Source: Rhodospirillaceae bacterium
GTDB taxonomy: Bacteria > Pseudomonadota > Alphaproteobacteria > MPNO01 > UBA2964
Direction of reading: 5' to 3'
Length of the DNA: 64,000 nt
Assembly (NCBI GenBank): GCA_002720855.1
Contig: PBIN01000004.1
Location: 62,001 to 126,000, forward strand
Part shown: positions 37,814-48,269 of the stretch, one piece after another
How positions within the stretch are numbered: position 1 is the stretch's first letter
Layout of the letters: every line of letters starts with the position of its first letter
Program-made: the position numbers and the translations under genes
Notes under the pieces: generated by a model
Seen by the model: the letters and a program-made list of their open reading frames with translations, nothing else
The model's database searches: none
Told to the model about the DNA's origin: nothing

Positions 37814-38947
37814 GTGACCGAGACACCCGATCAACCTGAAAACGTGGCTGAACCTGGTGCCGAAGATGGCGCAGCACCTGCCGAAGAAATGCAAGTCGAG
37901 TATTCTGTGTCAGCGGGTCTCGCACAGCGGCTGGCCCGGCACACCATTTCGCTCGCGGTAACGTCGTATCAATCGGGCCTGCTCTATTGCATTGGTCTCA
38001 ATGCGCAGGGCGGGATAAACGTTCATCAGACGGCGATGCCCAAACCGATGGGGTTATGTCTGGACGGGGAGACCGGTCTTGCCATGACCGCCGGATATCA
38101 AATCATGAGATTTGAGAACGTACTGCAACCGGATCAGCGCATTAATGAGACATTTGACGCATGCTTTGTTCCTCGACGGTTTCATGTGACAGGCCAGCTG
38201 GATGCGCATGATGTCGGTATTGATGAAGATGGCCGCGTAATATTCGTGAACACGCGTTACAATTGCCTGGCGACGACGTCCGCTCGCCACAGTTTTGAAC
38301 CGATCTGGCGGCCGTCCTTTATCTCCGCATTGGTCAATGAGGATCGTTGCCATCTCAACGGCCTCGCTATGGAGAATGGCAAGCCACGATACGCAACGGC
38401 GGTTTCACGATCCGATACCATCGATGGGTGGCGTGACCGGCGGTCAGACGGTGGTGTGGTCATTGATATCGAAACCAATGAGATCGTTTGCGAGGGACTG
38501 TCGATGCCCCATTCGCCGCGACTTTACCGCGACGACTTGTGGGTTCTAAATTCGGGCACGGGCGAGCTCGGAAAGATATCCGGGCTTGAGACCGGTAAAG
38601 GTACATTTGAGCCCCGAGCCTTTTGCCCGGGTTTCCTGCGTGGCCTGACGTTCCATGGTAACTTTGCTTTCGTAGGGCTGTCGAAACCCCGCTACAAGCG
38701 TTTCGAAGGCCTTGCGCTCGACCAACGGCTACAAGATGCAGATTCGGAACCCTGGTGCGGCATCCAAATCATCGACCTCGCTTCAGGGACCTGCGTAGAC
38801 TGGTTCCGTATCGATGGTGCAGTCGGCGAACTTTATGATGTTGAAGTTATTCCCAACGGCGTCTGGCCGATGGCCGTACCACCCTGGTCAAATGAAGCGG
38901 CAGAGCTGATCACGCTCGCACCTGAGCACTCAAATACCAACCAATAA
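37814..38947 (+). CDS. TIGR03032 family protein (DUF4915, beta-propeller-like)
   Basis: The 377-residue protein matches the TIGR03032 family: the start of the core SLAVTSYQSGLLYCIGLNAQ, DEDGRVIFVNTRYNCLAT, EDRCHLNGLAMENGKPRYAT, and LSMPHSPRLYRDDLWVLNSG. These features occur in order. Function is unknown; the repeats suggest a propeller. A 25-residue acidic tail precedes the core and no signal peptide is seen. The start is GTG at 37814. The next gene runs in the opposite direction and ends 17 bases later, and its product is a TIGR02466-type dioxygenase. Confidence 0.88.
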   Translation: MTETPDQPENVAEPGAEDGAAPAEEMQVEYSVSAGLAQRLARHTISLAVTSYQSGLLYCIGLNAQGGINVHQTAMPKPMGLCLDGETGLAMTAGYQIMRFENVLQPDQRINETFDACFVPRRFHVTGQLDAHDVGIDEDGRVIFVNTRYNCLATTSARHSFEPIWRPSFISALVNEDRCHLNGLAMENGKPRYATAVSRSDTIDGWRDRRSDGGVVIDIETNEIVCEGLSMPHSPRLYRDDLWVLNSGTGELGKISGLETGKGTFEPRAFCPGFLRGLTFHGNFAFVGLSKPRYKRFEGLALDQRLQDADSEPWCGIQIIDLASGTCVDWFRIDGAVGELYDVEVIPNGVWPMAVPPWSNEAAELITLAPEHSNTNQ

Positions 38948-38964
38948 AGAAATGGTAGAGAATT

Positions 38965-39651
38965 CTATCGCGCAACTGTAGCGGCGACCGCCTGTCTGAT
39001 CGATGCCGGCGCGGGTTTTGGGGCTGCCGGCTTGGCAGCAACCACTTCGGCTTCAAGGTTAAAGGCAATCGAAATACGTTCACCTTTGCCAATGAACGGG
39101 TTGACGAAATGGTTAAGCCAGCCCGGCCACAGCAAGAGCAGACCTGACTCCGGACAAATCCGTTCCTTGCCACCATGAAGGTTACCCGGACGCGGGTCTT
39201 GGAACTCGATCCAGCCATTAAAATCTGGCTCAGGTTCAGGTTCTCCTATGCATACATAGTAGCATCCGGACCAAACGGCTCCTGGATGATTGTGGATTTT
39301 ATTGTAGCCGCCGTCGCGAATTACATTCGCCCAACAACCGCCAAATAGTTTGACGTCTATTTCGCCTTCAATTCCCGGCGGCAACATACTGGCCGTCATA
39401 TCGCGGCCAGCCTCCATAATAGCTGTTTCCAACACGCGAACTTCCGGCTCTGCCCATTCGAGAAGATCAGCACTGGAATGCCACCCTCCTACATTACTCG
39501 CGGTGAGCCCGTCGCTTATACGCTCGCGTTCGAGGACGATGTCTCGAAGACGATCATTCAGCTGTTGAACGTCTGGCAGCGTCCGCTGCATCATCACGGT
39601 CGGAAAAACCTGTCGTAAATCGCCTTGGTTCATAGAACCCCGCTGCCCCAT
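38965..39651 (-). CDS. TIGR02466 family putative 2-oxoglutarate/Fe(II) oxygenase
   Basis: The 228-residue protein matches TIGR02466. It has NVIRDGGYNKIHNHPGAVW (His-x-Asn-His at about 116-119), the ECYYV-like strand SGCYYVCIGEP, and the distal GWLNHFVNPFIGKGERISIAFN with the second His and the Arg. Such proteins are predicted to be Fe(II)/2OG oxygenases with uncharacterised substrates. A second Met at residue 7 (39633) is an equally possible start. The C-terminal tail is rich in Ala, Pro and Lys. The convergent TIGR03032 gene may be functionally linked. Confidence 0.8.
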   Translation of the reverse strand: MGQRGSMNQGDLRQVFPTVMMQRTLPDVQQLNDRLRDIVLERERISDGLTASNVGGWHSSADLLEWAEPEVRVLETAIMEAGRDMTASMLPPGIEGEIDVKLFGGCWANVIRDGGYNKIHNHPGAVWSGCYYVCIGEPEPEPDFNGWIEFQDPRPGNLHGGKERICPESGLLLLWPGWLNHFVNPFIGKGERISIAFNLEAEVVAAKPAAPKPAPASIRQAVAATVAR

Positions 39652-39924
39652 TCACGCCATAACCGCGGCGCCGTTATGCAATCGTGATCATAACTCACAG
39701 TCACGTGATTGCGGGGACTATACAGGGAATACCTTAGAAATCACAAGGATATCGAAACTTCATAAAAGTCACTGCTGCAATTTAAAAACCGTTATTGTCG
39801 CGCCAATAGCTTGCTGATGTGGCATAATCATGCGATTGAGCAACAAAATGGTAAGCTTCAGCACGCTAATTTCTTCTTTTTCGTGTTGAATTGCGGAATT
39901 ACCAAGAGGTAGACGGGTCGAGAC

Positions 39925-40716
39925 GTGGAAGGATCATTGATTACCATTCATACCGACGAAGATTTCGAGGCGATGAGGCGTGCAGGAAAGCTCGCTGCCG
40001 AAGTCCTCGATTTCATAGCACCCCACGTCGTGCCCGGAGTAACAACCGGCGCTCTCGATCAGCTCTGCCATGATTACATTATCGAGCATAACGCCATCCC
40101 ATCGCCGTTAAACTATCGCGGTTTTCCAAAGTCCATCTGCACTTCAATCAACCATGTTGTCTGTCATGGCATCCCCGGTGAGAAGATTTTGCGCAATGGC
40201 GATATTGTGAATATCGATATTACTGTGACATTGGATGGCTGGCATGGCGATACCAGCCGGATGTTTCCGGTTGGCAATGTGGGCGTAAAGGCCAGACGTC
40301 TAATGGATGTCACTTATGAAGCATTGATGCGGGGTATTGAGGTTGTCCGTCCCGGAGCCACAGTTGGCGATATCGGTCACGCGATTCAGAGCTTTGTCGA
40401 AAAAAAGCGCTTCTCGGTGGTCCGCGACTTCTGCGGTCATGGGCTAGGCCGCGTATTTCATGCGCCACCCAGTATCTTGCATTATGGCGTACCCGATGAA
40501 GGGCCGGAAATTCGCGAAGGCATGTTTTTCACCATCGAACCGATGATCAATGCGGGACGATATGAAACAAAAATCCTGTCTGATGGCTGGACAGCGGTGA
40601 CCAAGGACCGGTCTCTCTCAGCGCAGTTCGAACATTCGATCGGCGTTACAAAAGATGGGCATGAAATCTTCACCACCTCGCCCGCCGGTCTAAACCAACC
40701 GCCGTATAACGTTTAA
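39925..40716 (+). CDS. map: Methionyl aminopeptidase, type I
   Basis: The 263-residue enzyme removes the initiator Met from nascent proteins. Type I landmarks are all present: ALDQLCHDYIIEHNAIPSPL, the metal-binding Asp in IVNIDITVTLDGWHGDTSRM, His in CGHGLGRVFH, Glu in FTIEPMIN, and the last Glu in FEHSIGVTKDG. The start is GTG 39925. It is followed 71 bases downstream by radC, an adjacency common in alphaproteobacteria. The 273-base gap before it holds the promoter region and an imperfect inverted repeat around 39676-39711. Confidence 0.95.
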   Translation: MEGSLITIHTDEDFEAMRRAGKLAAEVLDFIAPHVVPGVTTGALDQLCHDYIIEHNAIPSPLNYRGFPKSICTSINHVVCHGIPGEKILRNGDIVNIDITVTLDGWHGDTSRMFPVGNVGVKARRLMDVTYEALMRGIEVVRPGATVGDIGHAIQSFVEKKRFSVVRDFCGHGLGRVFHAPPSILHYGVPDEGPEIREGMFFTIEPMINAGRYETKILSDGWTAVTKDRSLSAQFEHSIGVTKDGHEIFTTSPAGLNQPPYNV

Positions 40717-40787
40717 GGATCAAGCCTCTTCCTGACACCCGCTCTCAACGCTAAGCTGTTTCCAGATAGCTTATTTCGCGGAAAAAT

Positions 40788-41474
40788 ATGGCTCAGGAAA
40801 AACCTTCTGATCAAAAGGGTCACCGGCAGCGGCTCCGGCAGCGATTTGTCGAGGCGGGCCCCGGGTCACTGGCAGATTACGAGATGCTGGAACTATTGCT
40901 GTTCCATGCCATTCCGCGTCGAGACACCAAGCCCACGGCCAAACGGCTTATCGAGAGGTTCGGGTCCTATGCCGCGGTTCTGCGAGCCGACGTGAAGGCA
41001 CTTAGCCAGGTCAAAGGCGTTGGAGAGACTACCTCGATCATGTTGAAATCCGTCGCAGATGCCGCCGAACGTTTGGCCCGCGATGAAGTCATGGACCGGA
41101 TTGTCCTAAGCAGCTGGGATGAGCTGATGGATTATCTCAAGATCAGTATGGCGCGGCAGGAAACTGAACGATTTCGCATCCTATTTCTGGATGTCAAAAA
41201 TGCGTTGATCGCTGATGAAGAGCAGCAGACCGGAACGGTCAATCATGCTCCGGTTTACCCGCGAGAAGTTATCAAACGCGCTCTAGAACTTGGCGCCAGT
41301 GCCTTGATCTTGATCCACAACCATCCGTCGGGCATTCCCGATCCATCCCCGGCAGATATCGATATGACCCGTAAAGTTGAGGAGGCTGGCGAACAGCTGG
41401 GCGTTCGTCTGCACGATCACATCATCGTCGCGCGAGAAGGCACATTCAGCATGCGTGCAGAGGGATTGATATAG
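40788..41474 (+). CDS. radC: RadC family JAB-domain protein
   Basis: The 228-residue protein has an N-terminal helix-hairpin-helix part (KALSQVKGVGETTSIML) and a C-terminal JAB/MPN domain with the metal motif HNHPSGIPDPSPADID and LHDHIIVAREGTFSMRAEGL. The cellular role of RadC is still debated despite its name. Its last 269 bases (41206-41474) are repeated at 43835-44103 with about 87 percent identity, so this 3' end may be of foreign origin. Normal length for the family. Confidence 0.93.
   Translation: MAQEKPSDQKGHRQRLRQRFVEAGPGSLADYEMLELLLFHAIPRRDTKPTAKRLIERFGSYAAVLRADVKALSQVKGVGETTSIMLKSVADAAERLARDEVMDRIVLSSWDELMDYLKISMARQETERFRILFLDVKNALIADEEQQTGTVNHAPVYPREVIKRALELGASALILIHNHPSGIPDPSPADIDMTRKVEEAGEQLGVRLHDHIIVAREGTFSMRAEGLI
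41206..41474 (+). repeat. radC 3' repeat, copy 1 (intact gene)
   Basis: The 269-base segment aligns without gaps to 43835-44103. I counted about 33 mismatches by eye, about 28 of them synonymous. It starts at the shared TGATC and ends at the TAG stop. Both copies point the same way and bracket the lipid cassette. Confidence 0.88.
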
Positions 41475-41478
41475 ACTG

Positions 41479-41607
41479 ATGTCGGTTTTTACCTATTCAG
41501 ATTACAAAACAATGACTGGTGCGGCGCCTGTGCCAAAACTATTTGAGTTGCAGACGGGCCGCCCTAACGGAAATGGAGAAAAAATTGGAGCCAATCCTAT
41601 CGATTAG
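41479..41607 (+). other. Short unassigned frame of 42 codons
   Basis: An ATG five bases after the radC stop opens a 42-codon frame (MSVFTYSDYKTMTGAAP...) ending at TAG 41605-41607. It has no clear ribosome site and I recognise no family. It lies at the left edge of the inserted cassette and could be a remnant of a longer gene or chance. Confidence 0.2.
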
Positions 41608-41619
41608 AAAGGCTAGACT

Positions 41620-42234
41620 ATGGTGAGCGTGTATGATCTCAAGCCGCGCTTCCAGGATGTCCTGCGCCCATTATGCAAAGGACTCGCCAAACTAGGCGTC
41701 ACCGCCAATCAAGTTACTATTGTCGCAGTCATCCTTTCCGCAATCCAAGGACTTTGGATCATTATCGATCCTAGTTCCCCGTTGCCCTATTTGGTTATGC
41801 CTGTCGTTCTTTTTATTCGCATGGCCCTGAATGCAATTGATGGGATGCTCGCCCGCGAGTTCGATATGAAAACCCCACTTGGCGGCATCCTGAACGAAAT
41901 GGGAGATGTAATTTCCGATACGGTTCTATATCTGCCACTTGCACTGCATCCTTCAGTTCCATTGTGGCCTCTCGTGGTTGTCGTCTGCCTGAGCATAATG
42001 GTGGAAATGATCGGCGTCATAGGCGTGCAGGTGGGTGCCAGCCGAAGATATGACGGTCCATTTGGAAAAAGCGATCGCGCCTTTGTATTCGGACTCGGTG
42101 GGATTTTCCTCGGGCTCGGCATTATGAATGCAACCTGGGCATTCTGGTGTCTCGTGGCGGCAGGGGTTTTCTCGGTTGTGACAATTATTAATCGCGGACA
42201 CAAAACGATTACGGAATTGGCAGCCGATGATTAA
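41620..42234 (+). CDS. CDP-alcohol phosphatidyltransferase (YnbA-like)
   Basis: The 204-residue membrane protein transfers a phosphatidyl group from a CDP-activated lipid to an alcohol. The family signature is present as NAIDGMLAREFDMKTPLGG followed by NEMGDVISD. The first Asp of the usual DxxDG is Asn, as I recall for YnbA-type members. Five to six hydrophobic helices are seen. It is the first gene of a three-gene lipid cassette with a CdsA-like gene overlapping it by eight bases and a PlsC-like gene. The cassette looks more AT-rich than map and radC. Confidence 0.87.
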   Translation: MVSVYDLKPRFQDVLRPLCKGLAKLGVTANQVTIVAVILSAIQGLWIIIDPSSPLPYLVMPVVLFIRMALNAIDGMLAREFDMKTPLGGILNEMGDVISDTVLYLPLALHPSVPLWPLVVVVCLSIMVEMIGVIGVQVGASRRYDGPFGKSDRAFVFGLGGIFLGLGIMNATWAFWCLVAAGVFSVVTIINRGHKTITELAADD

Positions 42235-43182
42235 TGCCATTCCGGATACCGTTCTTGTAACTTTGATCAGTCTTTACGCGATTTTGGCGCTGGCCTCTGT
42301 CATAAATTTCACGCTTAAACGAATTAAGCCAGACAGAGACTATCGAGAGCTTACGCAAAGAACGAATTCGTGGTGGATCATGATCACGATATTCGCGATT
42401 GCGATTATCGCCGACCGCGTCATCGCGATTATATTTCTTGGATTTGTCAGTTTTCTGGCGCTCAAGGAATATTTTTCTCAAATACCAACACGCCGTGCTG
42501 ACCGACGGGTAATTTTTTGGGCATATTTGGCGATCCCGTTTCAATATTATTGGGTTCACGAATATTGGTACGGGATGTTCATTGTTTTTATTCCCGTTTG
42601 GGTCTTCCTATTTCTGCCCATGCGCATGTTGTTCTGGGCAAGACTGAAGGTTTCATACGAGCAGCGGGCACCCTTCATTGGGGACTAATGATCACGGTAT
42701 TTAATCTTAGTCATGCCGCGTATTTCCTTTCACTCCCGACCATCGACAAACCCGGCACCGGTAGCGTTGGCCTATTGCTGTTTCTGATAATTTTGACTCA
42801 ATTCAATGACGTAGCCCAATTTGTTTGGGGCAAATCCATTGGTGGCAAAAAGATCATTCCAAGCGTAAGCCCCGGCAAAACCTGGGCGGGTTTCATTGGT
42901 GGGGTAATCACAACCGCTTTTGCGGGATATCTGTTGGCGCCATATCTCACGCCCATCGTGGGTTGGCATCAGTTTGTCGCGGGTGCTGTGATCGCAATTG
43001 CTGGATTCCTCGGTGACATCACAGTGTCAGCCATTAAACGTGATCTTGGCGTAAAGGATTTCAGCAGCTTTATACCTGGCCATGGTGGTGTCCTTGACCG
43101 GGTTGACAGTCTTACTGTTAGCGCCCCGGTCTTTTTCCATCTCGTATTTTATTTCTACTACTGGCCAACGTTACAGACATGA
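42227..43182 (+). pseudogene. CDP-diacylglycerol synthase-like (YnbB/CdsA) gene with a frameshift
   Basis: The gene begins at ATG 42227 in one frame (RTNSWWIMITIFAIAI, then LPMRMLFWARL) and continues in another frame from about 42628 (GKTEGFIRAAGTLHWGLM to YWPTLQT). A single lost base near 42626-42631, for example a G giving RMVVLGKTEGF, would join both into a 318-residue CdsA-family protein. The C-terminal half carries the CDP-DAG synthase signature in SAIKRDLGVKDFSSFIPGHG with LDRVDSL. It would make CDP-diacylglycerol from phosphatidate and CTP at the membrane. As written it yields a truncated 153-residue protein; assembly error and real decay are both possible. Confidence 0.82.
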
Positions 43183-43817
43183 GCCAACTTCTCAGATATG
43201 CCTTTTTCATTTTTCTCGTTCGGCCTGTTGTTTTAATTGTAATGGGCTTGAATATCCGTCGGCGCGAACTGCTGCCTGACCGTGGTCCTGCAATTATTAT
43301 CGCGAACCATAATTCGCATCTCGACACGATGGTCCTGATGTCGTTAATGCCGCTACGTTTACTCAAAAATACCCACCCGGTCGCGGCGGCGAATTATTTC
43401 TTGCGCAATCCCGTGACTGCCTGGTTCGCCACCAAGATTATCGGAATAATTCCCATTTCCCGAAAAAATGCCAAAGGCAATCCGCTTGCCGGTTGTTTTC
43501 AGGCGCTCGAAAAGGAGGCGATCTTAGTTATTTTCCCGGAGGGTTCCCGCGGCAACCCAGAAGATTCGATGTCGGAATTCAAACAGGGCATCCGCGTCAT
43601 CGCACGAAAATTCCCAAATGTGCCGGTTTCCCCTGTCTTCCTTCATGGACTCGGCAAGTCGCTGCCAAAAGGTGAAGCACTTTTTGTGCCATTTTTCTGC
43701 GATGTTTTTGTCGGCGAGTCGTTCAGATACGAAGCTGAAAAATCCGATTTCATGGAAAGTCTTCGGTCCTCGATGAATACTCTAGCATCAGAGGGTGAGT
43801 TCCCACCGTGGGATTGA
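43179..43817 (+). CDS. 1-acyl-sn-glycerol-3-phosphate acyltransferase (PlsC-like)
   Basis: The 212-residue membrane-associated enzyme has the acyltransferase motifs NHNSHLD (His-x4-Asp, about 43-49) and VIFPEGSRG (about 114-122). An N-terminal hydrophobic helix anchors it. It would acylate lysophosphatidate to phosphatidate, feeding the CdsA-like and CDP-alcohol steps of the same cassette. ATG 43179 overlaps the previous stop (ATGA). The radC fragment begins 17 bases after its end. Confidence 0.88.
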   Translation: MSQLLRYAFFIFLVRPVVLIVMGLNIRRRELLPDRGPAIIIANHNSHLDTMVLMSLMPLRLLKNTHPVAAANYFLRNPVTAWFATKIIGIIPISRKNAKGNPLAGCFQALEKEAILVIFPEGSRGNPEDSMSEFKQGIRVIARKFPNVPVSPVFLHGLGKSLPKGEALFVPFFCDVFVGESFRYEAEKSDFMESLRSSMNTLASEGEFPPWD

Positions 43818-43834
43818 ATGCCAAGACCTTTAAC

Positions 43835-44103
43835 TGATCTCTGATGAAGAGCAACAGACCGGAACGGTCAATCACGCCCCTGTTTATCCCCGAGAAGTTA
43901 TCAAACGTGCCCTTGAACTTGGCGCCAGTGCCTTGATCCTGATCCACAATCATCCTTCGGGCATTCCCGACCCATCCTCGGCAGATATCGACATGACACG
44001 TAAGGTCGAGGAAGCCGGCGAACAGCTGGGCGTTCGACTACATGGTCACATTTTCGTCGCCCGCGAAGGCACATTCAGCATGCGGGCCGACGGATTGATT
44101 TAG
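43835..44103 (+). pseudogene. Truncated radC 3' fragment (copy 2)
   Basis: The 269-base segment reads in frame as the last 88 codons of RadC (DEEQQTGTVNHAPVYPREVI to FSMRADGLI, stop TAG) without a start. It aligns end to end with 41206-41474. Protein differences are few: Ala to Ser, Pro to Ser, Asp to Gly in the LHDH motif, Ile to Phe, and Glu to Asp. The high share of silent changes shows that both copies evolved under selection as radC before they came to share this locus. Its stop overlaps the end of the convergent sugar isomerase-like gene. Confidence 0.85.
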
Positions 44104-45152
44104 TCTTCCGCCTCGATCTCAGCCCATGTGTTGCGGACAAATTGCGCGATGGCGGCGTTTTGGCCGATGAGTGAAAATTTCGCGTTATGGCCGTAATCCG
44201 GCAGGTTAATCATCTCCGTCGTAATGTAATCAAGCCGTCTCTCGGGATCAGCCTTGTGATATCGCAGCACTTTACGGACAACTTCCTTTGTCGGCTCCAG
44301 CTTGTATGCATGCCAGGGTGAGTGCCACTCGCCCGGCGCGGGTTTGGTGAAGGGGTACATGATGCCGCGTCCCGTTACGGGCTCCGCGTCATCGGGTAGT
44401 GTCGGCATTCCAGCGACGGGAACACCAGGCTGTTGTACCGACCATATATTCTTGGGTCCGTTGGGCACAGCAGAGCGCACCTGTAACCACCGTACGATAC
44501 CAAGCTCAAGCCATTCATCGCACAGATTGCCCTCTTCAAACGGATCCAAAATCAAACGCCCGGATTCAACATCTTCACGAATGCCAGAAATGTCCTGCTC
44601 TTCCGGGTTGTCGATCTTGAAATTCACATGGCTGTAATCGAGCGTGTAGTTGAAGGGAATCCCCTTTGCCTGCACCGCCAAAGCTACGGGCGTAACACGG
44701 CTAAAATCTTCGGACCACATATTGACGTGAAGCTCATAGGCAGGTTCGACACCGAGTTTCATCGCCTCGTCATAGGTGTTGAGATAACTGTCGACGATTT
44801 CCTGATCCGTCACCGCATGCCCGTCTGCGTGATGCGTAAAGATCATGATGTTATGCATCTTGGCGCCGAATTCCTTGGCGATTTGGAGATTATCGGAAAG
44901 AAGCGGCTCGTCCTGACCAAGCCGGTAGAACCAGCTTACAGTAGCGATAGGTAAATCATACTTCTCAATTGCAGCACGATATTCGTCGATGCTGTCACGC
45001 AGGGGAATGCGATCAAAATAATCGAAAACACCAGTTTCCTTCACGAGCCGGAATTGCTCGTCAATCGATGCCTCTTCAAGCGAAATAGGATTTTCTATCG
45101 AAGAATCCTGCGCGCCACGGCCATTGCAGCCGATTAGAAAATCATTTGTCAT
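44100..45152 (-). CDS. TIM-barrel sugar phosphate isomerase/epimerase-like protein
   Basis: The 350-residue protein belongs to the AP endonuclease 2/xylose isomerase-like TIM-barrel group. Metal-ligand positions are suggested by NIMIFTHHADGHAVTD, EPAYELHVNMWSEDF and FNYTLDYSHVNF. The N-terminal part starts with DFLIGCNGRGAQDSS. The substrate is unknown. It has no operon partner and its end touches the radC fragment. The adjacent TerC gene runs in the same direction 68 bases upstream. Confidence 0.78.
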   Translation of the reverse strand: MTNDFLIGCNGRGAQDSSIENPISLEEASIDEQFRLVKETGVFDYFDRIPLRDSIDEYRAAIEKYDLPIATVSWFYRLGQDEPLLSDNLQIAKEFGAKMHNIMIFTHHADGHAVTDQEIVDSYLNTYDEAMKLGVEPAYELHVNMWSEDFSRVTPVALAVQAKGIPFNYTLDYSHVNFKIDNPEEQDISGIREDVESGRLILDPFEEGNLCDEWLELGIVRWLQVRSAVPNGPKNIWSVQQPGVPVAGMPTLPDDAEPVTGRGIMYPFTKPAPGEWHSPWHAYKLEPTKEVVRKVLRYHKADPERRLDYITTEMINLPDYGHNAKFSLIGQNAAIAQFVRNTWAEIEAED

Positions 45153-45220
45153 TAGTACTCCACCGTTTTCCTGCCTTTACCTTAGGGGCGCCGACGGTGG
45201 CTCACAACGGCTGAATACGC

Positions 45221-45862
45221 CTAAATCCCAGCGATTTCCGCGATTTCAATACTGCCGCGCCATATCATCGCGGCGGCAACATAAACAATAAGCAATAGCC
45301 CGATATAGCCGATCCAGTGATGTTTCTGGAGAACACGCGCAATAAGCGTAGCGCCAACACCCATAAGAATAACAGAAAGAGCCAAACCAATTACCAAGGC
45401 AGACATGTGATTATTGGCCGCGCCTGCCACGGCCAAGACGTTATCGAGCGACATTGAAATATCGGCGATGGCGACTTGTAAAACAGCGGCTTTCAGAGTC
45501 TTTCTCGGTGCCGGAGCGCCTTCACCAACCACGGTTCCGCCACCACCTTCCGCTGCAAGCATCGCCTGCGCTTCTGCTTCTTCCCGCAAATCACGATATA
45601 GTTTCCAGCACACCCAGAGCAGCAGCAAACCACCGGCCAGCGTCAATCCGATGATGTTCAGGAGCTCCATCGTGACGCCGGCGAAAATAATCCGCATGAC
45701 AACAGCAAGCGCAATTCCGTAAACAATGACTTTCTTGCGGTGTTCTGGTGCCACGCCAGCAGCCGCCATGCCGACAACAATGGCATTGTCTCCGGCAAGT
45801 ATCAGATCGATAAGAATGACCTGACAAATTGCGATGAATTCGGGATAGCTGACTTCAAACAT
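45221..45862 (-). CDS. TerC family integral membrane protein (YjbE-like)
   Basis: The 213-residue membrane protein has the TerC hallmarks: LIDLILAGDNAIVVGMAAAG (about 18-37) and ADISMSLDNVLAVAGAA (about 132-148), each with the conserved Asp-Asn pair. Seven helices are predicted, with a Gly-rich loop between (AEGGGGTVVGEGAPAP). Members are linked to manganese or other metal export. The expected manganese riboswitch (yybP-ykoY) was looked for in the 253-base gap upstream, and nothing convincing was seen. Confidence 0.88.
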   Translation of the reverse strand: MFEVSYPEFIAICQVILIDLILAGDNAIVVGMAAAGVAPEHRKKVIVYGIALAVVMRIIFAGVTMELLNIIGLTLAGGLLLLWVCWKLYRDLREEAEAQAMLAAEGGGGTVVGEGAPAPRKTLKAAVLQVAIADISMSLDNVLAVAGAANNHMSALVIGLALSVILMGVGATLIARVLQKHHWIGYIGLLLIVYVAAAMIWRGSIEIAEIAGI

Positions 45863-45929
45863 ACTGTCAGCGATTATACTCTATCAAGAAATAGCCTCAT
45901 AAATTCAGCATCTTATAAAAAAGACACCG

Positions 45930-45946
45930 TATGCCCATTTGGCATA
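45930..45946. promoter_or_regulatory. Small dyad between terC and the cupin gene
   Basis: TATGCC and GGCATA are exact complements around CATTT. The element lies in the divergent region 45863-46115, which otherwise shows no recognisable structure. It could be an operator, but 6-base arms may be chance. Confidence 0.3.
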
Positions 45947-46115
45947 AGTGACGCCGGTTGTCTTATCTTTCAAGGGGTAGACCTAACTTTTAATACTCAC
46001 GTTTCTGTAACGTATTTTTCAAAATTTGCCAATGCAACGCCCCTGTTATAGGCGTCCCATTGTAGATGCTGCCATTTCATGGCATCACCCGATCAAATCA
46101 TCAAGGAGTTCAGCA

Positions 46116-46667
46116 ATGGTTAAACCGATCAGGCGCGTCGTTACAGGGCATGACGAAAGCGGAAAAGCCGTGGTTATCATGGACAGTGACGCAACGAATG
46201 TTGTTACGTCGGAACACAGGCCAGGCGGGCGCACCAATCTTTGGCGGACAACCTCTATGCCCGCCAGCTATGGCGGGGACAAGGATGAAGCGGACGCGGT
46301 TTTCGACGTTGAACCACCGCCCAACGGCGTGAATTTCCGAATTTCCGAATTTCCACCAGAAGACCCTGAAGTGATGGCGACACTCGACGGGACAAAGGCC
46401 TTCGGCGAGGTCGGTGCAGCACATCGCGTAGTCGAAGGCGCGCGACATCCATTTATGCATCGTACCGAAACCGTTGATTACGGTATCGTTCTCGAAGGCG
46501 AAATAGATATGTTAATGGATGAGGAAGACATCCACCTGAAAGCCGGAGACGTCATCATCCAGCGAGGTACGAACCATGCCTGGGCGAACCGTTATGAAGA
46601 ACTGTGCCGGATTGCGTTTATCCTGATCGACGGAGTGGACGAAGACGGCAAGAAACGGGACGGATAA
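46116..46667 (+). CDS. Cupin domain protein
   Basis: The 183-residue protein has a cupin barrel. The motif region is FMHRTETVDYGIVLEGEIDM (about 108-127) and the second, KAGDVIIQRGTNHAWANR (about 140-157), contains His residues that would bind a metal. This matches bacterial cupins of the type that follow aromatic or sugar catabolic genes, but the substrate is unknown. The start at 46116 has AAGGAG eight bases before it. The methyltransferase gene begins nine bases after its end. Confidence 0.87.
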   Translation: MVKPIRRVVTGHDESGKAVVIMDSDATNVVTSEHRPGGRTNLWRTTSMPASYGGDKDEADAVFDVEPPPNGVNFRISEFPPEDPEVMATLDGTKAFGEVGAAHRVVEGARHPFMHRTETVDYGIVLEGEIDMLMDEEDIHLKAGDVIIQRGTNHAWANRYEELCRIAFILIDGVDEDGKKRDG

Positions 46668-46675
46668 AATACCTT

Positions 46676-47290
46676 ATGTCCGAAGAGCCAATAGAAAGCT
46701 GGAAAGACTATTACAAAAAAACCGGCGCTCGACCGCCGCGTGAGACGTTGCTGTTTGCCCTCGACAAATTCGAAGAAGAACGATCAACCGGCGGGGTCAA
46801 CTTGCGAGCGATAGACCTCGGCTGTGGAAATGGCCGGGATACAGTTGAACTATTGCGGCGCGGTTGGCAGGTCTTCGGCGTGGACGCCGAACAAGCGGCG
46901 ATTGATGGGCTTCGCCAACGCGATGAAGTCGGCGAAGGAGCCATGCTGGAAACCGCGACATCGCGATTCGAAGACATCGATCTGCCCGAGTCCGAGTTGA
47001 TCAATTCAAGTTTCGCCTTGCCGCTGGTCTCCCCGCAGGACTTTCCGGATCTTTGGGATAAAATGCTAATGGCCCTTGTTTCTGGCGGGCGCATTAGCTG
47101 TCAGCTATATGGGGATCGCGATAGTTGGGTCGGCGACCCCGGTATCACCTTCTTCGCCCGTAGCGCCATCGATGCGCTGCTTTTCCCTCTCGACGTTGAA
47201 TATTTCCGTGAGGAGGAAGACGACAGCACAACACCGCGAGGCCAGCAAAAACACTGGCATATCTTTCACATTGTGGCCCGTCGGCCGTAA
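46676..47290 (+). CDS. Class I SAM-dependent methyltransferase
   Basis: The 204-residue protein has motif I AIDLGCGNGRDTVELLRRG (about 43-61), the acidic end of the next strand (FGVDAEQAAIDGL), and motif post I SSFALPLVSPQDFPDLWDKM near 120-139. It follows the cupin gene closely. The family is related to TehB-type and small-molecule methyltransferases. The C-terminal end HWHIFHIVARRP closes the sheet. The substrate is not identifiable. It converges with purC and ends 10 bases before its end. Confidence 0.88.
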   Translation: MSEEPIESWKDYYKKTGARPPRETLLFALDKFEEERSTGGVNLRAIDLGCGNGRDTVELLRRGWQVFGVDAEQAAIDGLRQRDEVGEGAMLETATSRFEDIDLPESELINSSFALPLVSPQDFPDLWDKMLMALVSGGRISCQLYGDRDSWVGDPGITFFARSAIDALLFPLDVEYFREEEDDSTTPRGQQKHWHIFHIVARRP

Positions 47291-47300
47291 TCGAGAGCCC

Positions 47301-48269
47301 CTAGGAGAAATACTCAGGCAACGCAGATTTGAGATTTGCCCGCACTCGATCGCCAACCGGCTGATCACCTGCAGGATGCTCAAATTTTAGGCCCGTGACC
47401 TGCTCGTAAAGCGCAATGTATTTGCCGCTGAATTCAACAATAGTTTCGTTGGGAATTTCCGGAATCGGATCCTTATACGGATCACACTTCCCGGCAATCC
47501 ATAACCGCAAAAACTCTTTATCGAGGCTTTCCGGTTCTTTCCCGTCAGCCAGTCTCTGATCATAGCTTGACGCAAGCCAATACCGGCTTGAGTCGGGTGT
47601 GTGCACCTCGTCGGCCAAGGTAATGGCGCCGCTCTCATCGAGACCAAACTCGTACTTAGTATCGACCAAGATCAGTCCATTTTTAGCCGCTACTTCGCGA
47701 CCACGTGCGAAAATTGCCAGACTAATACGGGCCAATTCATCCCACTGCTCCTGGCTCAGCAACCCCTGAGCCACAATCTCCTCTGGCGTAATCGGCGCAT
47801 CGTGATCCCCTTGTGCCGCCTTGGTCGTCGGCGTCAAAATGGTTTCAGGCAGTTTCTGGTTCTTTGTAAGCCCCTCCGGAAATTCAATGCCGTAAAGGGT
47901 CCTTTCACCACGTTCATACATTGGCCAAATGCTGGTTTCCGTTGATCCGGTAATATAATCGCGCACCACCATCTCTACCGGCAGCATCGACAAGTCTTTT
48001 GCGATGATCACATTTGGATCCGGATAATCGATAACATGGTTTGGGCAGATATCTTCCGTCTGATCAAACCAAAAACGGGCTGTTTGGTTTAAGACCTGGC
48101 CCTTATATGGCACCGATGCCAAAACCTGATCAAAAGCGGATTGTCGATCTGTTGCGACCATAACGCGACGTCCATCGGGCAACGCGTAGGATTCACGTAC
48201 TTTACCCTGTTCAAAATTAGGGAGTTCAGGAAATTGAGCTTCACCAAGACAAGAATTTGAAAGATCCAT
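47301..48269 (-). CDS. purC: Phosphoribosylaminoimidazole-succinocarboxamide synthase, long type
   Basis: The enzyme joins aspartate to CAIR in purine synthesis. The protein has about 322 residues from ATG 48269 (334 from a TTG at 48305). Family blocks are GKVRESYALPDGRRVMVATD, PVEMVVRDYITGSTETSIWP, LILVDTKYEFGLDESG and ADEVHTPDSSRYW. The length is that of the yeast ADE1-like type rather than the 240-260 residue type usually located beside purS in alphaproteobacteria. It stands alone here, about 15.5 kb before purS. The intergenic region to the divergent hydrolase holds a 16-base palindrome at 48328-48343. Confidence 0.92.
   Translation of the reverse strand: MDLSNSCLGEAQFPELPNFEQGKVRESYALPDGRRVMVATDRQSAFDQVLASVPYKGQVLNQTARFWFDQTEDICPNHVIDYPDPNVIIAKDLSMLPVEMVVRDYITGSTETSIWPMYERGERTLYGIEFPEGLTKNQKLPETILTPTTKAAQGDHDAPITPEEIVAQGLLSQEQWDELARISLAIFARGREVAAKNGLILVDTKYEFGLDESGAITLADEVHTPDSSRYWLASSYDQRLADGKEPESLDKEFLRLWIAGKCDPYKDPIPEIPNETIVEFSGKYIALYEQVTGLKFEHPAGDQPVGDRVRANLKSALPEYFS

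Follow-up and report, generated by a model that had tools for sequence, protein, structure and literature searches.

The stretch analysed here, which we call the window, comprises 64,000 nucleotides of a Rhodospirillaceae bacterium (assembly GCA_002720855.1, contig PBIN01000004.1, positions 62,001 to 126,000 of the forward strand). It contains an intact radC gene whose 3′ end is found a second time further downstream, with three phospholipid genes between the two copies. The evidence suggests that this cassette entered together with the radC end of another species, and that the native end was displaced beyond it. Genomes are cited by G numbers, the window genome being G000, and loci by L numbers; codons are counted in window radC numbering. 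The features of the locus are as follows.

39925..40716, + strand: map-like gene, an open reading frame (ORF); homologous genes occupy the site in L192 and L193. It is conserved to the left of radC, and we take it to be methionine aminopeptidase (map)
40788..41474, + strand: radC, intact, 228 amino acids (ORF; Pfam RadC, PF04002); 5′ part native, 3′ part probably imported
41206..41474, + strand: left copy of the radC 3′ end, from the repeat alignment; putative incoming copy
41475..41619, no strand: spacer of 145 nt from radC to the cassette, without blastn match in L033-L038
41620..42234, + strand: YnbA-like CDP-alcohol phosphatidyltransferase (Pfam PF01066); the nearest NCBIfam models are inositol-phosphate lipid synthases, below cut-off
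42227..43182, + strand: CdsA/YnbB-like phosphatidate cytidylyltransferase, frameshifted (Pfam PF01148, CTP_transf_1, on both halves)
43179..43817, + strand: PlsC-like acyltransferase (Pfam PF01553)
43835..44103, + strand: right copy of the radC 3′ end, codons 140-228 plus stop; displaced native end
44100..45152, − strand: convergent gene for an AP_endonuc_2/xylose-isomerase-like TIM barrel, just under the Pfam cut-off; abuts radC in G007
45221..45862, − strand: terC-like membrane protein gene (Pfam TerC); right border of the variable interval in the genus

Two diverged copies of the radC 3′ end

An earlier note on this DNA had reported that the last 269 bases of radC recur without gaps and in the same direction, with about 33 mismatches, about 28 of them silent. 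Pairwise alignment of 41206-41474 with 43835-44103 gives exactly these figures: 33/269 mismatches (87.7% identity), comprising 28 silent differences and five amino-acid changes (A142S, P188S, D210G, I213F and E225D). When 33 substitutions were placed at random, the mean number of silent changes was 8.8 and the maximum 18 in 5000 trials. The synonymous divergence (dS) between the copies is 0.65 and the nonsynonymous divergence (dN) 0.025, values that bear out the view that the two evolved as radC in separate lineages.

The pair is the sole direct repeat above 33 nt listed by the repeat search in 38000-48000, and a DNA search of the whole genome revealed no third copy. Uninterrupted identity between the copies extends over at most 24 nt, at a place inside the repeat. 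Leftward of 43835, anchored alignments over 60 and 30 nt detected no radC homology (p 0.73 and 0.82).

Which copy is native

In G007, a genome of the same genus, there is no cassette; radC overlaps the convergent TIM-barrel gene by 4 nt (L035, 7204-7890 and 6155-7207), and terC follows. This is an empty site, and it is the arrangement that the earlier note had proposed to look for, with radC directly before the gene at 44100-45152. The right copy in the window overlaps the TIM-barrel gene by the same 4 nt (44100-44103), and hence occupies the native place. With G002, G003 and G007 as the reference for polarity, the derived state of each of the five amino-acid changes is on the right copy, and the left copy has none. 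Derived silent changes are divided between the two, with 14 on the left, 7 on the right and 7 of unclear polarity. It follows that the right copy was a functional radC end for most of the divergence and was released afterwards. By its junction, the right copy is the displaced native end and the left copy arrived with the cassette, as had been proposed.

In a tree of the last 269 nt, the two window copies are joined with 97% support against other genus members. The earlier note had held that such clustering would indicate a local duplication. That rule fails here: the silent divergence is far too large and the amino-acid divergence far too small, and a released duplicate could not have stayed so conserved in amino acids, so that clustering means a near donor. 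Among genus species, dS is 0.85 for G002-G007 and 0.82 for G003-G007, the remaining computed pairs being higher and one undefined. Because the copies cluster and their dS is below that of the species pairs, we place the donor in a near species of the same genus.

A variable interval in the genus

The genus sample consists of nine genomes, seven of them readable across the site, and compares species rather than strains. Between map and terC, these seven show six different gene orders. Three genomes have different cargo behind radC, and one has the TIM-barrel gene alone. The window order is map, radC, cassette, radC end, TIM-barrel gene, terC. In G002, radC is followed by two reverse genes, without a match in Pfam or PHROGs, then by an 87-nt radC end and terC; this displaced end differs from the genome's own radC end at 4/87 positions, all silent. 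In G003, a response regulator gene and GGDEF/EAL genes lie between radC and terC, and blastn at E 1e-4 found no second radC end. G007 has the order map, radC, TIM-barrel gene, terC.

Three genomes of the genus lack an intact radC at the site. G001 (L036) has a degraded radC that ends at about codon 124, beside terC. In G006 (L192) and G008 (L193) radC is absent and map adjoins terC, with gaps of about 85 and 50 nt. The G004 contig stops beside terC, and G005 gave no TerC match. G008 also carries a near-identical map-terC locus on two contigs (L190 and L191), which suggests a mixed bin (listed contamination 8%).

Other cargo at the same place in relatives, which the earlier note had anticipated, is thus present in G002 and G003. 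Nor is the window arrangement common to all relatives: the first cassette gene was seen in one of the nine genus genomes, that of the window, several of the nine being incomplete. These gene orders mark the radC-terC interval as a gene-exchange hotspot.

The TIM-barrel gene has an 82% identical homologue at L129 (G019), in a genome from another family of the order, and most genomes of its own genus and family have distant relatives of it or none. The gene may itself be mobile.

Displaced radC ends in other genera

We searched for the same structure, an intact radC with a displaced 3′ end on the same strand within about 10 kb downstream, in a sample of the class (386 genomes, RadC matches in 329) and an overlapping sample of the phylum (397 genomes, RadC matches in 382). 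Genomes with several matches were picked by eye from the genome tables, and the single-match genomes inspected were G513 and G598. From the class sample 39 genomes were re-read (34 multi-match genomes besides G000 and G002, and five relatives), and from the phylum sample 65 (63 new multi-match genomes and two with short frames). The structure was found by search in the window genome, G002, G131, G613 and G737, and G590 and G442 were added from DNA. In total, at least seven genomes in four genera have an intact radC with a displaced 3′ end. The survey counts are lower bounds, because the protein search missed short ends: those of G590 and G442 fell under the cut-off and were seen as DNA. No case was seen in the 46 re-read genomes outside the class, where the query is weak.

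The cargo differs from case to case. In G131, a single contig of 1.4 Mb, a 10-kb chemotaxis operon with genes for a methyl-accepting chemotaxis protein, CheR, CheW, CheB, a response regulator and CheA lies between radC and a displaced end 79% identical to the genome's own. Its congener G228 has an empty site, in which radC adjoins the same convergent gene (DUF3800 in G131). In G613 (displaced end 91% identical to its own radC), three cargo frames were scanned, of which one encodes an AraC-type regulator and another a protein weakly matching propeller repeats. The cargo of G737 (85%) is one flavin mononucleotide-dependent dehydrogenase gene, and that of G590 (83%) is a gene of the same length and similar start. 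G442 has two radC ends in direct tandem without cargo (L182, about 1374-1643 of the reversed locus), 82% identical, which may be either the scar of lost cargo or an insertion without a cassette. Its right end groups with the displaced ends of G737 and G590 (99% support), all three belonging to genus g287. Scans of cargo proteins from the window, G002, G131, G613 and G737 revealed no integrase.

The copies in G131 are less simple than those in the window. In the part of the alignment from column 485 on, a point chosen with the data in view, G228 shares 17 sites with the right copy and 8 with the left, in keeping with a native right copy. Identity along the right copy is uneven: the first three 30-column blocks have 22, 17 and 20 matches, with indels in two of them, and after the third block there are 25-28 matches per 30 columns without indels. 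This hints at re-use of an earlier displaced fragment by crossover. Leftward of the displaced copy, anchored alignments gave p 0.039 and 0.040 over 60 nt and 0.28 over 100 nt, and the copy may extend further left in decayed form.

The starting codon of the displaced end is 140 in the window, 201 in G002, about 177 in G613 and 186 in G737 and G590. These differing starts argue against one fixed core. We considered a common integrase core near codon 140, which was suggested by G000, G131 and insertions at codons 130-136, and rejected it on the starts in G002, G613 and g287, the left limit in G131 being uncertain. Taken together, these cases agree with the earlier note's suggestion of a general entry site, and foreign genes that lack their own recombinase appear to dock repeatedly at the radC 3′ end.

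In E. coli, the radC 3′ end is at one place in each of the 5374 matching genomes (of 5426); given this single place per genome, the site is not hot there, within a search blind to copies more than about 15% diverged. Among the matches listed, the RadC C-terminus has counterparts in 42 phage records, none of which reaches 60% identity. Five proteins searched against PHROGs had no match.

Integrase elements that break radC

Another class of insertion was found in the same samples. In all six genomes scanned (G075, G090, G116, G191, G269 and G312), a tyrosine integrase lies directly behind a radC truncated at the HNHP codons, 177-180, and these elements leave the radC codons from about 175 on at their far end. 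G542 and G669 have the same break in a protein-level re-read. The two radC parts are 9 to 125 kb apart in the six one-contig cases and on separate contigs in G116 and G542. G087 has a serine recombinase at radC codon ~133. In G513 and G598 the gene is split at codon ~130-136, G598 having an integrase match below cut-off, and G144 is probably split likewise, at a contig break. The integrase elements thus break radC, whereas the integrase-free cassettes keep it whole.

Two further observations concern radC ends. At L142 (G090), two radC 3′ fragments, 90% identical over 157 nt, lie near the far end of one integrase element and perhaps represent two successive insertions. At L152 (G200), at the reversed contig start, a long palindrome noted by eye precedes a radC end from about codon 135, near the contig end, and is possibly a recombination site.

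The lipid cassette

The cassette comprises three lipid genes only, and its ORFs and Pfam matches include no integrase or other recombinase, which confirms what the earlier note had said. The three families that it had named also stand by Pfam, with the correction that the CdsA gene as assembled is broken by a frameshift into halves (42227-42688 and 42517-43182), each of which matches the corresponding part of one Pfam model. The frameshift may be real decay or an assembly error, two possibilities that look alike in the sequence. All NCBIfam matches of the cassette proteins are below cut-off. The spacers are 145 nt on the left and 17 nt on the right.

In the class sample, a YnbA match at E 1e-8 is present in 22 of 386 genomes, the window genome counted, and the nearest other has 54% identity. 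The three Pfam families stand in one gene row in the window. At the 19 YnbA loci examined (about 2.5-3.6 kb each), the order YnbA-CdsA-PlsC is found at eight (L159, L160, L161, L164-L167 and L171) and YnbA-PlsC-CdsA at three. A RadC match is present at none of the 19, which cover at most about 1.5 kb on each side of the genes, and the idea of the cassette as a radC specialist was rejected. For 17 of the 21 other YnbA genomes the place of radC was among the matches listed, on another contig or far from YnbA. We conclude that the cassette is an ordinary lipid gene cluster of patchy distribution. Its G+C content (cdsA 0.44-0.49, ynbA 0.51, plsC 0.49) is slightly low compared with the window (0.518), which proves nothing, as the nearby purC equals it (0.494).

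Possible mechanisms

We consider it moderately probable that DNA of a near species brought the cassette together with a donor radC end through recombination inside radC, and that the native end was displaced in the process. The observations behind this reading are the diverged copies, their silent divergence, the native right junction, the empty site, the other cargo in relatives and the three further genera. The route of recombination, the circular or linear form of the donor and the role of RecA are the parts that we infer; the absent integrase and the differing boundaries, our sole pointers to the route, suggest that homologous recombination is likely.

In this scenario, the donor would be another species of the genus, and the DNA that brought its three-gene phospholipid cassette into the radC-terC interval would have included its radC 3′ end as well. 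An exchange within radC, most likely dependent on RecA and guided by homology on the radC side, would swap the donor end in for the last ~90 codons of the gene. The last 269 nt of the native gene would then be stranded beyond the cassette, still beside their native convergent neighbour. For a circular donor a single crossover would be enough, while for a linear donor the far end would be joined illegitimately inside radC. Because the donor supplies a working gene end and radC survives the insertion, the site would be reusable.

Several points weigh against this reading. The donor itself was not found, and the crossover point is not visible in the window copies, whose mismatches are evenly spread. 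Over the whole G131 alignment, G228 agrees with the left copy at 42 sites and with the right at 20, an effect of decay in the 5′ part of the latter. The G613 boundary lies on the HNHP core used by integrase-bearing elements, so that some such structures may have begun with an integrase. Finally, radC was the sole gene surveyed, and the counts give no rate relative to other genes.

In an alternative reading, the structure is what remains of a site-specific element: the cassette and a replacement 3′ end were placed at a core inside radC by an integrase that was later lost or acted in trans. The G613 boundary speaks for it. Elements in tRNA genes carry such replacement 3′ ends. In the same class, moreover, tyrosine integrases accompany all six HNHP truncations scanned, G087 has a serine recombinase, and G513 and G598 are split (the latter with its below-cut-off integrase match). 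However, there is no integrase in the cassette, where the spacers leave 145 and 17 nt; the window boundary is at codon 140 and not at the HNHP core, and the boundaries of the restored cases differ among themselves. The scanned integrase-bearing cases truncate radC rather than restore it, and the longest identical run between the copies, 24 nt, lies within the repeat. Integrative and conjugative elements (ICEs) and integrative and mobilisable elements (IMEs) of Mesorhizobium do use radC (PMC8627217). On balance, we regard a lost integrase as the main rival reading, possible although somewhat unlikely.

We think it quite improbable that a relative already possessing the complete structure passed it on by double crossover in the flanking genes, the insertion being older than the genome. 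The five amino-acid changes on the right copy do indicate that the displacement is not brand new, and the grouped displaced ends of three g287 species are old. The first cassette gene is nevertheless confined to one of nine genus genomes, several of them incomplete, and such an exchange merely shifts the original event elsewhere.

A joining at radC of two strains or species from a metagenome bin is highly improbable: an assembly in 15 contigs and a frameshifted CdsA gene would fit it, but both copies lie inside one 169-kb contig that is collinear with relatives on both sides, they differ by 12%, and the structure recurs in the single-contig genomes G002, G131 and G613. We rejected, as having a practically negligible chance, a local origin in which the radC 3′ end was duplicated in tandem and an insertion then separated the copies. 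The two do lie nearest to each other in the tree, but a duplicate released from constraint would accumulate changes at every codon position, against the silent excess (28/33, random mean 8.8) and the dS of 0.65 versus dN of 0.025.

Returning to recombination inside radC with a donor end, we offer a further idea tentatively and consider it rather unlikely, namely that the radC 3′ end is a portable homology arm, and that recombinase-free alphaproteobacterial cassettes circulate by means of the diverged radC ends at their borders. If so, the cargo and one radC end would leave as a circle when the direct copies recombine, and one crossover would bring this circle into any other radC, with a working gene remaining each time. 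The tandem ends of G442 and the uneven copy of G131 would then be traces of excision and re-entry.

Relation to known systems

Two kinds of system described in the literature resemble the window: minimal mobile elements of Neisseria (PMC3082526) and integrase-free hotspots (Oliveira et al. 2017, PMC5635113). In both, varied whole-gene cassettes lie between the same conserved genes without a recombinase gene, and homologous recombination in the flanking core genes is the proposed route (PMC3082526, PMC5635113). Unlike both as described there, the window has a border gene of which one part is present twice: a diverged donor copy has taken the place of the 3′ end, and the native end is kept as a fragment. 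Homology at one end with an illegitimate join at the other, as in homology-facilitated illegitimate recombination (PMC3240628), would give the anatomy of the window; that process is described from naturally competent species and E. coli conjugation, and the match is one of anatomy alone.

Elements that target radC are also known, including Mesorhizobium ICEs and IMEs, phi105 and the Tn554 family (PMC8627217, PMC3764409, PMC10101025, PMC6008420), and most of the Mesorhizobium elements have their own recombinases (PMC8627217). Unlike radC-targeting elements, the window cassette has no recombinase, its displaced end starts at codon 140, and radC is whole. An integrative element at radC would need a short core repeat at a fixed position, whereas the starts found here are 140, 201, ~177 and 186.

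The other phages, ICEs, IMEs and transposons that target radC likewise have their own recombinases. In prophage e14 of E. coli, a diverged 3′ end completes the icd gene and the native end is displaced. The window resembles e14 in the incoming 3′ end and differs in that e14 has an integrase.

In the accessible parts of this literature, we found no report of a replaced and displaced radC 3′ end. Integration at radC and integrase-free hotspots are already known, and the replacement of a gene's end looks new among these. The window finding is an insertion at an integrase-free hotspot, and no new kind of system.

Many hotspots of gene exchange lack a recombinase, and the entry of cargo there has been argued mostly from statistics. 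A displaced gene end that can be dated is a fossil of the event, from which the foreign side and the distance of the donor can be read, and here it is found in a DNA-repair gene able to take insertions without loss. Its recurrence in four genera provides a signature, consisting of an intact gene, cargo and a diverged, displaced 3′ end, that can be searched for at other genes. Such searches could measure how much recombinase-free entry contributes.

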